A stretch of DNA of 37,255 bases, from positions 1-37,255 of the forward strand of contig JAGVYP010000038.1 of assembly GCA_018303205.1 (NCBI GenBank), given 5' to 3'. This document shows, in pieces, positions 9,418 through 37,134 of the stretch; position 1 is the stretch's first letter; each line of letters begins with the position of its first letter. The notes below the pieces were generated by a model. That model made no database searches and was not told the origin of the DNA. It saw only the letters and a program-made list of their open reading frames with translations. Both the position numbers and the translations under genes were made by a program. This DNA is from Candidatus Woesearchaeota archaeon. GTDB lineage: Archaea > Nanobdellota > Nanobdellia > Woesearchaeales > JAGWAF01.

Positions 9418-9538
9418 TTTTGTTCTCGTTTATTTTTAGTATTTTTTTGAATCTTATATTTTTTATTTTTTTATTTCACTTATTTTTGTTTTTTCATCTT
9501 TTTATACTCTTCTATTTTTTGTAATACTTTAGTGTTCT

Positions 9539-9666
9539 GAAGCTGTACCGTCTTCTCGCGTGGTTGTCCTACTTGTTTCTTCTTCGCTCATTCCCGCTGG
9601 GAGCTTCCCCTTTCGCTTCGTCTATACTTTTCGTCAAAACGCTCGACTTGAGGACGGTGCAGCTTC
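9539..9666 (+). repeat. Structured intergenic element, copy A
   Basis: 128 bp lying between pgk and tpiA. The 14-nt arms at 9539-9552 and 9653-9666 (GAAGCTGTACCGTC / GACGGTGCAGCTTC) pair fully, with one G-U wobble if read as RNA. Just inside are segments conserved with the other copies: TTCTCGCGTGGTTGTCCT after the left arm and ACGCTCGACTTGAG before the right arm. An internal GGGAGCTTCCCC hairpin is also present. The stretch 9418-9733 holds no gene apart from this element. Confidence 0.8.
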
Positions 9667-9733
9667 ATAATCGTGTAATTACCATTTTTTTATAGGATTG
9701 TAATCTTAAAAGTTTGTTCTTATTTCTTTTTCC

Positions 9734-10966
9734 CTATTTTACTCTCTGCTTTGCCTTTTGCAGCATTTGCATAACTGGAGCTTTTTCACCAGAAAGATAA
9801 TATAAGGTTGCTCTTCCACCAATGCTGACATGACTAAATTTTTCTGCAATGCCCATATCTGCAACTACTTTGGCACTATGACCTCCTCCTACAACAGTAT
9901 AGGCATTTTCACATGATACTTTTTCCAATAGGGCATAGGTTCCATACTCAAAACCAGGAATCTCAAACCTTCCCATAGGTGAGTTAATCACGATTGTTTT
10001 GGCATCCTCAAGAATCTTGCTGTACCTCCCTACTGTTTCTCTTCCAATATCAGAGATGATATAAGGAGTTGGTAATTTTGCTACTCTTACCTCAATGCGT
10101 TCTTCTTGTTTCTTCACGGCAACATCAACAGGAGTTTCAATCTTATCACCATATTTTTCAATAAGTTCCTTTGCCTGGGGAAGAAGGGGAAGAATTTCCT
10201 TTCCTTGCAATACTTCTAAAGAAATAGGACCCAGATCATATCCTTTTGCAGCAAGAAACAAATTACCAAGAATACCACCCGTAAGAATGACATCTGCCTG
10301 ATTCTGCTTCATTAAATTTTTAATTACTTTGAGAGACTCTTTTACTTTCACACCTCCCAAAAGGTAAACAATAGGACGCTGAGGTTGCACGAGTATTTTC
10401 TGCAATGCGGCAATTTCCTTTTCAACAACTCTCCCTGCAACCGTAGGAAGCATTTCTCCAAAACCTACCAGACTCGGTTGTGAACGATGAATAGCTGCAA
10501 AAGCATCATTTACAAAAAGATCGCTCACTGCTGCCAATGCCTTTACCAGAATACAATGTGCCTGGACATCAGCAGGTCTTTCCAAGGTTTCCTCAGAAAA
10601 AAAGCGCACATTTTCCAAGACGAGGATGTCTCCCGGATTCATCTTTTTGATATGCTCTTTTGCATTGCTTCCAAAAATATCATCAACAAACTGTATATGA
10701 TTTCCCAAATATTTTTTTAAAAGCTCAGCATGTTGTTGTAGGGAAATAAACTCATTATCTCCTGGCCTTCCTTGATGGGAAAGCACAACAGTCTTTGCAC
10801 CTTTGTCACGTAATTCTTTTAAGGTCGTCGCAGCATGTAACTTAATGCGTTCATCATTGGTGATAAGTCCTGTGGCAGGATCTATGGGGCAGTTGATATC
10901 TACTCTTGCAAGAACCACTTTGTTCTTTACCTCAACATCATCTAAAGTAAGAAAATCATATCCCAT
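9734..10966 (-). CDS. pgk: Phosphoglycerate kinase
   Basis: 410 aa. It converts 1,3-bisphosphoglycerate plus ADP to 3-phosphoglycerate plus ATP, or the reverse in gluconeogenesis. Family landmarks are VVLARVDINCPID (N-terminal substrate Arg/Asp), LSHQGRPG, LENVRFFSEE, FVNDAFAAIHR, YLLGGVKVKESL and the C-terminal VGGGHSAKV. Of two adjacent ATGs (10969 and 10966) the second has better spacing from AGGTG (10973-10977). The start overlaps the reading frame of the gap 3' end, which stops at 10956, so translation of pgk is probably coupled to gap. Confidence 0.95.
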   Translation of the reverse strand: MGYDFLTLDDVEVKNKVVLARVDINCPIDPATGLITNDERIKLHAATTLKELRDKGAKTVVLSHQGRPGDNEFISLQQHAELLKKYLGNHIQFVDDIFGSNAKEHIKKMNPGDILVLENVRFFSEETLERPADVQAHCILVKALAAVSDLFVNDAFAAIHRSQPSLVGFGEMLPTVAGRVVEKEIAALQKILVQPQRPIVYLLGGVKVKESLKVIKNLMKQNQADVILTGGILGNLFLAAKGYDLGPISLEVLQGKEILPLLPQAKELIEKYGDKIETPVDVAVKKQEERIEVRVAKLPTPYIISDIGRETVGRYSKILEDAKTIVINSPMGRFEIPGFEYGTYALLEKVSCENAYTVVGGGHSAKVVADMGIAEKFSHVSIGGRATLYYLSGEKAPVMQMLQKAKQRVK

Positions 10967-11877
10967 CATGATCACCTGTTTTCTCTGCAAGATCAACCAA
11001 TCTTTTTGCATATGCCCACTCATTATCATACCAAGCAAGTATTTTTGCAGTATTACCCATTACTTGCGTGCTTAAACCATCTACGATTGCTGAGTGTTCA
11101 TCTCCCTTAAAATCGCAAGATACAACTTGCTTCTCTTTTTAGTATGACCACAAGATCAATCAGCGAAACCGTTTCTGTGGGTACACGAATTGCTAATCCT
11201 GCAATCTTATCTTTCATTTCCGGAATCACTAACTTTAATGCTTTGGATGCTCCTGTGCTTGTGGGAATCATCGATTTTGTTGCATAGCTAGCCCTGCGCA
11301 GATCTTCATGGGTTTTGTCTAATAATTGCTGATCACACGTGTATGCATGTATCGTTGTCATAAATCCTTTTTCTATGCCAAAACTCTCCTGCAATACTTT
11401 TACAACAGGTGCTAAACAATTGGTTGTGCAGGAAGCATTAGAAATAATCTTATGTTCTGGTTTTAACTGGTTATCATTCACTCCTATAACAATGGTGATA
11501 TCTTCTCCTTTGGAAGGTGCTCCAATAATAACTTTCTTTGCACCTGCTTTGAGATGCTTTTCAGCCCCTTCGCGATCTTTGAAAATTCCTGTACATTCTA
11601 AAACAATATCAACATTCAAGTCTTTCCAAGGAAGATGTTCTGGATTCCGTTCTGCAAATACTTTTATTTCTTTTCCATTCGCGATCATGCTTTTTTCTTT
11701 GATTTCGAGATTTCCCTGCCAGGTTCCATAGGTAGAATCATACTGGAATAAATGCCCCATGGTTTTTGCGTCAGAAGTTCCGTTAATTGCAATGACTTCT
11801 ATCTTTTTGTTTTGCAGTGCGTGGCGTAATGCGCACCTTCCTGTTCTTCCAAAACCATTAATTGCAATGCGTATCAT
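10956..11877 (-). pseudogene. gap: Class I glyceraldehyde-3-phosphate dehydrogenase with internal deletion and frame change
   Basis: From the ATG at 11877 the frame reads a bacterial-type (class I) GAPDH: nucleotide-binding INGFGRTGR, catalytic Cys150 in SNASCTTNCLAP, His177 in TTIHAYT, and NAD-dependent-type middle motifs. It then stops early at 11107 after LVVILKRE-ASCILRF. The rest of the enzyme continues in another frame: VVSCDFKGD, AIVDGLSTQVMGN and AWYDNEWAYAKRLVDLAEK, ending at a TGA at 10956-10958. Between the two parts about 29 residues expected in this family are absent. A single-base sequencing error therefore cannot restore the gene. It is either a genuine inactivating deletion, or an assembly collapse. 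Archaea usually carry class II GAPDH, so the bacterial type suggests transfer or a DPANN replacement. Confidence 0.8.
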
Positions 11878-11955
11878 CGTGTTTCTCTTTGGATATTTTA
11901 TTTTTTCATATTTTTCCATATTTTTTTATCAATTTTTCCTATTTTATTTTCTTTC

Positions 11956-12075
11956 GGTCACCGTCTTCTCGCGTAGTTATCCTTTTTGTTTATTCATCGC
12001 TTATCCCCGATGGGGACATCCCCCTCAGCTTTGTCTATTTTTTCTGTCTAAACGCTCGACCTGAGGACGGTGACC
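11956..12075 (+). repeat. Structured intergenic element, copy B
   Basis: 120 bp between fba and gap. The perfect 10-bp arms GGTCACCGTC (11956-11965) and GACGGTGACC (12066-12075) differ from copy A at their outer part but still pair. Conserved inner segments follow: TTCTCGCGTAGTTATCCT on the left and ACGCTCGACCTGAG on the right. A central GGGGACATCCCC hairpin is followed by a TTTGTCTATTTTT stretch like copy A. No gene is seen in 11878-12139. Confidence 0.8.
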
Positions 12076-12139
12076 ACCTTTAAGGCAATGATCGCTCAGT
12101 AGGTGTTTGACTTTCCGACGGTGAATAACCATATATCTT

Positions 12140-14047: not shown

Positions 14048-15065
14048 GGCTAATATGAAACCCTCTGTTTTAGAATAGGAATATTTAAGTAGTAGTCTCG
14101 TCGATAAACTGTTTGAAAGAACGAGTTTTATAGACGAGGTGACTACCAATGGAAATTATAATTTCGAAGTTTAAAAAGGTTGCTGATTTTTGCTATGAAC
14201 TTTGCCAAATTGGCAAAGTTCCCTTGTACTTCTCAAAGTATGCCAATAAGATCTATACCAATTATCAGCATTTGTTCATGCTAGTATACAAGCAAGCCAG
14301 AAAATTTACCTACGAAGAATTATTAACTGATTTAGCTGATAACATCAGCTTACGATGTTATCTTGGCTTGAATGAACTACCCCATTATACCACTTTGATT
14401 AAGTTTGCTCAACGATTACCAAGCTTGGTAATCGATAAACTTGTTCTAGCTTTCAAGAAATTGGTAGAACAACCTGAAAAGGTTGCAATTGATAGTACAG
14501 GAATTAGTTTGGATAATGCGAGTCCGCATTATTGCAAAAGAATAGGCTTGCCTTTCAAGAAAAGACCTTTCTTGAAAGCAAGTTTTATCGTCGATATAAA
14601 CACATTCATGATCTTACTTGCTAGGTTTCGTAAGAAACCAAGACATGATCTTATCGATGCAAAGATCATGGTAAAAAAACTTAGCAAACATTACAAACCT
14701 AAAATATTTTATGCTGATCGTTGTTATGATAGCGATGAAATGTTCAAACAAGTGTTTGAACAACTCCATGCTTACCCATTAATCTTGCAAAAGAACTTGC
14801 ATATCCCAAAATACAAACGCCATGGCACATATCGTAAAAAAACATACGATGTATTCGATTATGGCGAATACCTACAAAGAAACCGCATAGAAACAAGCAT
14901 CGATATGTTCAAAAAAAGAAATGGACACCACATCAGAAGCAAAAACAACAAATGCCAAAAAGTAAAAGCATTTACAAGAGTTATAGCCTACAACATCGAT
15001 AGGCTAATAAGAATGGGAAAAAATCTTATTTTGATCATCATTAAAATAAGGGTTTCATATTAGCC
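14048..15065 (+). mobile_element. Complete insertion sequence with 17-bp terminal inverted repeats
   Basis: The 1,018-bp element is bounded by perfect 17-bp inverted repeats GGCTAATATGAAACCCT (14048-14064, and its complement at 15049-15065). The flanks carry near-identical GAAAAAGG / GAAAAAAGG, possibly a target duplication, though it differs by one A and so is uncertain. One intact transposase gene fills it, and its last codons lie within the right repeat. The lack of decay and the perfect ends suggest recent insertion upstream of fbp. Confidence 0.88.
14149..15063 (+). CDS. IS5/IS4-like DDE transposase (DDE_Tnp_1)
   Basis: 304 aa, the single gene of the insertion sequence. An N-terminal helical DNA-binding part (LADNISLRCYLGLNELPHYTT, as in DUF772-type IS5 transposases) precedes the RNase H-like catalytic core. 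The DDE triad is visible: Asp115 in VAIDSTGI, Asp190 in FYADRCYDSDE, and Glu248 in RNRIETSIDMFKKRNG. The start ATG follows GAGGTGAC at good spacing. The stop TAG lies in the right terminal repeat. All catalytic residues and length appear intact, so the element could be active. Confidence 0.9.
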   Translation: MEIIISKFKKVADFCYELCQIGKVPLYFSKYANKIYTNYQHLFMLVYKQARKFTYEELLTDLADNISLRCYLGLNELPHYTTLIKFAQRLPSLVIDKLVLAFKKLVEQPEKVAIDSTGISLDNASPHYCKRIGLPFKKRPFLKASFIVDINTFMILLARFRKKPRHDLIDAKIMVKKLSKHYKPKIFYADRCYDSDEMFKQVFEQLHAYPLILQKNLHIPKYKRHGTYRKKTYDVFDYGEYLQRNRIETSIDMFKKRNGHHIRSKNNKCQKVKAFTRVIAYNIDRLIRMGKNLILIIIKIRVSY

Positions 15066-15110
15066 GAAAAAAGGGCTTAGTAGAAAACTTCGCTTCGCTT
15101 GGGGTTGCCG

Positions 15111-15171
15111 GCTTCTCGCTTGTTATTTCTTTTTGATTATTACTGACTTGCACAAAAATCAAGGATTTTTG
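15111..15171 (+). repeat. Structured intergenic element, half copy E
   Basis: Right beside the insertion sequence, this segment matches the 5' half of copy D: CTTCTCGCTTGTT, a T-rich spacer, then GACTTGCACAAAAATC and the hairpin AAAAATC-AAG-GATTTTT. No matching 3' arm is found downstream, so it is a truncated copy, perhaps cut during insertion of the neighbouring element or by recombination. Confidence 0.6.
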
Positions 15172-15294
15172 GAGGTAATTAATCCTGATTACGTACTTTT
15201 TGTCTTTTCTTTTCACCATTTTTTTATTTTTTCTATTCATCATTTTCTCTCTTCTTTTTGAGCACTCCTACGGAGATTTACTCTACTCCTTCTT

Positions 15295-15525
15295 GAAGCT
15301 GTACCATCTTCTCGCTTGCAATTTTTATCTCGACGAATGACATTCCCCGCAATTGTTTCGTCAATTGGAACCGATGTGAGTTTCGCTTCGCTCAAGCCCA
15401 CTTTTTCGTGTGGCTTTATGCCGCACCTGTTTTTACCAGATTTTTCTTAAAAATCTGAGGAACTTCCCCCTTGTCACTTCTTATTTTCTTGTCTAAAAAG
15501 CTCGACTTGAGGACGGTACAGCTTC
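15295..15525 (+). repeat. Structured intergenic element, copy C with an inserted module
   Basis: 231 bp. The 14-nt arms GAAGCTGTACCATC (15295-15308) and GACGGTACAGCTTC (15512-15525) pair at 13 positions. Inside are TTCTCGCTTG on the left and AAGCTCGACTTGAG on the right. The extra length comes from an inner module (about 15372-15462) containing GTGAGTTTCGCTTCGCTCAA, a GTGTGGC/GCCGCAC hairpin and CTGTTTTTACCAGATTTTT. Parts of this module also occur at 5495-5553. No gene is present in 15066-15557. Confidence 0.75.
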
Positions 15526-36755: not shown

Positions 36756-36801
36756 TCTTCTTCTTTCTTTTTTCAAACATAAAAAGGTTTCTAAAGTATG
36801 G

Positions 36802-37018
36802 GCCCTGTCCTAAATGTCGGTTAGCAGCATAAGGTCGAGTGTGTAAACAAAAAAGATAAACAGTGACAAAGGGGATGCTCCAGACGGGAAACGCGTAAAA
36901 ATCGTGTATTTTTAGCGTGCCAAAAATCCTTGATTTTTGTGCATGTCACTCATCAACAAAAAGAAGAACTACACGAGAAGCTGCTAACCCGAACGTTAGT
37001 GAGATTTAGGACAGAGCC
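36802..37018 (-). repeat. Structured intergenic element, copy D
   Basis: 217 bp, in minus-strand orientation relative to copies A-C. The outer stem GCCCTGTCCTAAAT/ATTTAGGACAGAGC (36802-36815, 37004-37017) has one mismatch. The inner stem GGTTAGCAGC/GCTGCTAACC (36819-36828, 36980-36989) is perfect and unrelated in sequence to the stems of A-C. The adjoining conserved segments are TTCTCGTGTAGTT and CACTCGACCTTA, and GGAGCATCCCC is again present in the centre. It shares GCACAAAAATCAAGGATTTT with half copy E. Nothing else is seen in 36756-37134. Confidence 0.78.
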
Positions 37019-37134
37019 TAAAGTATGATCCTTTTACCTCTTTAGGATACGTCTTGTTTTCATTTATCTTCTCTTTTTTTATAAAAAATGAATCAAACAA
37101 AAATACAACAAAGAGACGATAAAAAAAATAATTA

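Follow-up and report, generated by a model that had tools for sequence, protein, structure and literature searches.

A MITE-like family of elements in one archaeal order, with a core that is probably kept for a single-strand fold

The window analyzed here, a whole stretch of 37,255 nucleotides from a Candidatus Woesearchaeota archaeon, contains several intergenic elements whose ends are self-complementary and differ in sequence from one copy to another, which raises the question of whether such elements are preserved for their fold, dispersed by transposition, or both. The original prediction described four copies (A to D), proposed selection on folding, and favored a mobile or independently transcribed unit. 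Our preferred answer, to which we assign a probability of about 0.7, is that they belong to a MITE-like family of non-autonomous mini-transposons in one archaeal order, which is mobilized in trans and has a core kept for the fold of its minus strand.

Covariance models found all four copies in the places described, with stems and conserved inner segments as reported (Table 1). The central hairpin is also present, but the motif given for it, GGRRC-TCCCC, should rather read CCCGnnGGG and then CCCC. Copy D has the self-complementary stem ascribed to it, but this stem sits within a longer, transposon-like unit bounded by the terminal inverted repeat (TIR) GGCYCTGTCCTAAAT and flanked by a target-site duplication (TSD), and its apex carries extra AT-rich hairpins. 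The outer repeat of copy A resembles the GTAATACTTCAGC termini known from other genomes; it is too decayed for copy A to be included in the count of copies with TIR and TSD given below. No clear TSD was seen at copy B or copy C. We also found a half copy, E, which adjoins an insertion sequence and forms with copy D an inverted repeat of 99 nt (73%).

Table 1. Positions of the elements and of the neighboring insertion sequence in the window
Feature	Position	Strand	Details
Imperfect 8-bp repeat around copy A	9513–9520 and 9683–9690		TATTTTTT / CATTTTTT
Copy A with decayed outer inverted repeat	9521–9682	+	GTAATACTTTA...GTGTAATTAC; read from the sequence
Core of copy A, from one P1 arm to the other	9539–9666	+	Stem GAAGCTGTACCGTC; R1 126.7 bits, E 5e-30
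Copy B	11952–12079	+	R1 138.4 bits, E 4e-33; best match in the genome
Copy B stem	11956–11965 and 12066–12075		GGTCACCGTC / GACGGTGACC
Insertion sequence, IS5-like	14048–15065	+	TIR GGCTAATATGAAACCCT (17/17)
DDE transposase of this insertion sequence	14149–15063	+	Pfam DDE_Tnp_1 41.9 bits, over cut-off; DUF772 over cut-off
Half copy E	about 15074–15172	+	TIR GGCTTAGTAGAAAA, left stem GGGTTGCCGGC, then TTCTCGCTTG...; cut in the apex
Copy C	15295–15525	+	Extra hairpins inserted at the apex; R2 77.4 bits, E 3e-16
TSD of copy D	36792–36800 and 37019–37027		TAAAGTATG, perfect, 9 bp
Copy D, complete mobile unit	36801–37018	−	R1 84.2 bits; TIR and 9-bp TSD
TIR of copy D	36801–36815 and 37004–37018
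Core of copy D	36815–36993

The core is about 127 nt long (123–130 nt), and the whole unit measures about 166 bp. Read along the plus strand, the left half consists of P1, T, P2, a linker, P3, the hairpin P4 (CCCGnnGGG), and CCCC, after which a linker leads to P2', and six bases (CCTGAG or CCTTAT) separate P2' from P1'. P1 is a stem of 10–16 bp with a variable sequence and maintained pairing, P2 is a stem of about 8 bp, and P4 is a CCC/GGG hairpin whose region is conserved; a conserved asymmetric loop lies between P1 and P2, and the linkers are fairly constant in length. Because core lengths are spread across all three reading frames, the elements are not coding, and the concern raised with the original prediction that the inner segments might belong to a coding sequence falls away. 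The genome contains no empty palindromes without the core (ACCGTC-N0-30-GACGGT), so the core is unlike a later insert into pre-existing palindromes.

That the stems differ between copies and nevertheless pair was borne out in larger samples. In 102 distinct copies, 610 cells were changed on both sides compared with 181 in shuffles, and 44 later copies from genomes outside the model gave 283 compared with 90; such pair counts are inflated because the alignments were made to fit the structure, but not by enough to yield the numbers obtained. P1, P2, and P4 covary strongly, nearly every pair in them having changed on both sides among the copies, and when partners were shifted by 1–3 columns, pairing in the 102 copies fell from 86.5% to 35–44%. 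A single genome holds the P2 variants GCGT/ACGC, GCGA/TCGC, GCTT/AAGC, GTGT/ACAC, ACTT/AAGT, GCAT/ATGC, and AAAATTC/GAATTTT. Further copies did not show the loss of pairing that had been named as contrary evidence: 92% of P1 and 97% of P2 pairs were Watson-Crick. P3, which is poorly aligned in the model, had 5.8 Watson-Crick pairs compared with 4.1 in shuffled interiors. The conclusion that compensatory mutation maintains a one-strand fold, and that this fold is selected, is well supported.

The original prediction suggested building a covariance model and searching related archaeal genomes, and such searches recovered a family with covarying pairs. Model R1, built from 12 copies, found 46 copies at E<0.01 in the source genome (1.42 Mb in 74 contigs, 85% complete), far beyond chance, and had matches in 59 of the 193 genomes of an order sample (Woesearchaeota-related), the source genome included. 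Model R2 had matches in 72 of 371 genomes drawn phylum-wide, again including the source genome; 71 of these belong to the same order and one to another order of the class. A covariance model was needed for this, as a DNA search of relatives gave two weak matches outside the source genome. The exact apical pattern occurred on two genome contigs, at least one of them from a Woesearchaeota record, and on no viral contigs; a looser gapped pattern occurred in 18 viral stretches, none of which was confirmed by the covariance model. If these were ordinary MITEs, the interior would be ancestral baggage whose apparent conservation stems from recent spread, and near-identical recent copies do exist in some genomes (G143 and G104). 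We consider this very improbable, because the same fold recurs with divergent sequence across many genera of the order, the held-out copies covary as strongly, and the extra hairpins gather at the apex only.

Short hairpins recur at the apex of copy C (window 15361–15460) and of the copies at C27:10876, C25:7076, C74:16804, and C2:37016. They form one set of AT-rich and GC-rich sequences (CCAGATTTTTCTTAAAAATCTG, GTGTGGCTTTATGCCGCAC) and may be smaller palindromes that are themselves mobile and sit nested within the element. Elsewhere in the window, at the very start of the contig, arms at 1–73 and 200–272 are 99% complementary with 126 nt between them, and positions 1–272 are thus either a long palindrome or an assembly fold-back; on the minus strand at 11039–11919, a GAPDH frame stops at 270 aa, shorter than expected, with a possible frameshift near 11107–11140.

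We scanned the copies for an outer inverted repeat with an 8- or 9-bp TSD at its edge, using shuffled flanks as the control. A TIR with an exact or near-exact TSD was found in 60 of 155 copies (0–1 with shuffled flanks), the TSD being 9 bp in 43 and 8 bp in 17; a smaller set gave 37 of 111 (0–2 in the control). About 60% of copies had no recognizable TSD. The termini with 9-bp TSDs include GGCTCTGTCCTAAAT, GGGTGTGTCCCAAAT, GGCTCTGTAGAAAA, GGCTTCATCCAAAAA, and GGCTTTGCACAAAAA, among others, and those with 8-bp TSDs are GTAATACTTCAGC and also GTATTTGTTTAGCATC / GTATGTGCATAGCATC, in which P1 itself is the end. One and the same core is found within three or more kinds of termini that are unrelated, some of them identical to IS5-like termini of the same genome, and the two TSD lengths together with the unrelated ends suggest that at least two transposase systems are involved. 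In G129 and G364, two cores lie head to head inside one unit. As in MITEs, the elements are short, lack coding sequence, have TIRs and TSDs, and, for the GGCT-type ends, have a partner with the same ends, and their mobile, MITE-like nature is well supported. The occurrence of copies in both orientations relative to genes, from which a mobile or independently transcribed unit had been argued, is too loose an argument; mobility stands, on the evidence of the TSDs. Short units at L186 (G129:C51, 1732–2107) with ends GGCTCTGTAGAAAATC and GGCTCTGTCCTAAATC have other interiors, so not every MITE with such ends contains the core.

Candidate partners are present in the same genome. The insertion sequence in the window is flanked by 9-bp repeats (GGAAAAAGG / GAAAAAAGG, 8/9 matching), and its TIR recurs at the ends of a core copy in genome G050 (L149/L190). 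Its transposase scored 131.6 bits against NCBIfam transpos_IS5_2, below the cut-off of 140, and since both IS5-like copies in this genome have transposases just under that cut-off, we use the label IS5-like. The other copy, on C1, has ends GGCTCTGTAGAAAAC, an 8-bp repeat ACCATTTC, and the TATA-like sequence TTTATAAA directly to its right. A third insertion sequence is collapsed in the assembly and known by its ends alone (TIR GGCTCTGTCCTAAAA); its interior (C18-type) is missing from the assembly, and its ends have matching 9-bp TSDs across the contig breaks C18/C23, C29/C19, and C64/C59. Each of these three kinds of end also occurs on core-carrying units. For the GTAATACTTCAGC ends, the search for an autonomous partner yielded just further core-carrying copies and contig-end fragments.

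The insertion sites share features as well. Of 46 TIR-bounded copies, 26 have the motif TTTA(T/A)A at a distance of 10–19 bp from their right end and 13 have it at that distance from their left end, and the insertion sequences likewise have it close to the right end; copies with IS5-type ends preferentially lie so that a TATA box is about 15 bp away from one of the two ends. In the source genome, a gene usually begins to the right of a TIR-bounded copy, and most copies without TIRs directly follow the 3' end of a gene that reads toward them; since the gene calls behind this pattern are rough, it is a lead only. In three cases (L044 at C23:7253, L039 at C27:9624, and window 15049–15087), the TIR of the element lies about 9 bp beyond an insertion sequence end of the form TTTCATATTAGCC (or ...TATCC), as if the two had inserted successively at the same promoter-proximal site.

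Comparison of individual copies points to exchange between ends and interiors. Copy C at 15361–15506 is 96% identical to a copy on C74 with a GGTTAGCAGC-type stem and a ATTTAGGACAGAGCC end, and the likeness stops at the loop beside P1; copy D and a copy on C33 are 92% identical over a 105-nt interior and have different ends. Ends and stems have therefore been exchanged relative to interiors. As the fold stays constant while the termini differ, something about the fold, and not the ends, is preserved.

Which strand folds is indicated by positions 18–19/108–109, which have the constant TC/GA pair on one side and the part of P2 that varies on the other. These positions are TC/TC in 70 copies, fully Watson-Crick in 52 (AA/TT in 33 and GA/TC in 19), and otherwise in 8. 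TC/TC pairs poorly on the plus strand; on the minus strand it reads as tandem GA opposite GA in the context C-GA-G, an arrangement that is stable in both RNA and DNA and can be replaced by Watson-Crick pairs. The alternation of tandem G.A with Watson-Crick pairs points to the minus strand as the folded strand, as is probably true of copy A. A kink-turn was considered at this site and rejected, two Watson-Crick pairs standing between the tandem G.A and the bulge.

The main rival to folded single-stranded DNA is a structured RNA made from the minus strand, carried by the transposon, acting in the host or for the element, and transcribed by read-through from a neighboring gene or from a nearby promoter. 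The one-stranded G.A signature would suit such an RNA, as would the finding that, with RNA parameters, 96 of 143 copies have an inner part that folds better in its minus-strand form, and the position of many TIR-less copies of the source genome 5–84 bp past the stop codon of a minus-direction gene. However, the minus-strand preference is also present with DNA parameters (113 of 143), copies with IS5-type ends mostly have a neighboring gene in the opposite direction, and the window had no Rfam match above the gathering score. In addition, G.T and A.C cells in P1 are rare to the same degree (27 and 33 of 1751), and P2 has hardly any of either (2 and 8 of 582). G.U states are nearly absent from P1 and P2 on either strand, unlike in ordinary RNA helices, which points to the folding of DNA over that of RNA. 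We therefore regard the RNA reading as rather unlikely.

Strict Watson-Crick pairing with no wobble bias, in a P1 that varies freely, is also what would be expected if template switching or arm-to-arm conversion during replication perfected the inverted repeats and kept the palindromes identical without selection. This process would leave unexplained the conserved unpaired segments, the TC/TC state that is kept while its neighbors vary, the recurrence of cores close to 127 nt long across many genomes, and the conserved P4 region, and we consider it a distinctly improbable account.

The mechanism that we propose for the minus-strand fold is as follows. The transposases of several insertion sequences would move the element in trans and would recognize the outer repeats alone, which would make the ends exchangeable. 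The core would be kept because the minus strand must fold, most likely as single-stranded DNA in a cruciform or on a strand exposed by replication, and the folded DNA may bring both ends together or otherwise raise transposition, whatever the transposase. The role of the fold in transposition is the weakest step and is offered tentatively; the fold could instead serve the host or be read as RNA. We prefer a single-stranded DNA fold that aids transposition because of the strict Watson-Crick pairing and the exchangeable ends. A broader conjecture, which we hold with similar reserve, is that the core is a fold-defined 127-nt single-strand module that MITEs belonging to several unrelated transposase systems have acquired across the order and that functions with each of these systems, as a transposase-independent enhancer of transposition or a travelling functional nucleic acid.

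The interior of a MITE is usually taken as filler, whereas here the interior is conserved and the ends are exchanged. This makes it testable whether a non-autonomous transposon can house a structural module and thereby be freed from dependence on any one transposase. For an archaeal order that has been little studied, the family also provides a dispersed marker, together with a covariance model that works. Its promoter-adjacent insertion (a TATA box about 15 bp from one end) could alter gene regulation.

Searching the open-access literature for MITEs in DPANN or Woesearchaeota, we found nothing relevant. Like the prokaryotic MITEs that are moved by insertion sequences, the elements are short, non-coding, multi-copy, intergenic, and AT-rich, with TIRs, TSDs, and apparent autonomous partners in the same genome (review PMC10969869). 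Unlike those MITEs, they have an interior fold that covarying changes preserve throughout an archaeal order, and one core is combined with several unrelated TIR/TSD types. They share with IS903-type members of the IS5 family a TIR beginning GGCTNTGT and a 9-bp TSD, but they lack a transposase. ERIC/IRU and other bacterial intergenic palindromic repeats resemble them in being intergenic imperfect palindromes of nearly equal length (RU-1 is 127 bp; PMC2759123). They differ from the elements in sequence and taxon. ERIC is, moreover, one sequence family and is not known to have freely varying, covarying stems.

In architecture, the elements resemble a known type of folded single-strand site. Integron attC sites likewise combine variable arms that pair, a spacer that stays unpaired, another paired box, and a variable apex, and in them, too, structure is kept while sequence is free and probably one strand is recognized. 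The reading that the elements are themselves attC sites, or hairpins of the REP/IS200-IS605 kind, is already contradicted and scarcely credible. Among 152 copies, GTTRRRY occurred in one, RYYYAAC in two, and both in none, and no Y1 transposase (PF01797) was found in the source genome (85% complete). Cassette arrays were considered and rejected, as copies stand singly between ordinary genes and the genes between neighboring copies share no theme. Unlike attC, the elements have no consensus boxes, and they move with TSDs, which indicate insertion of the cut-and-paste type.
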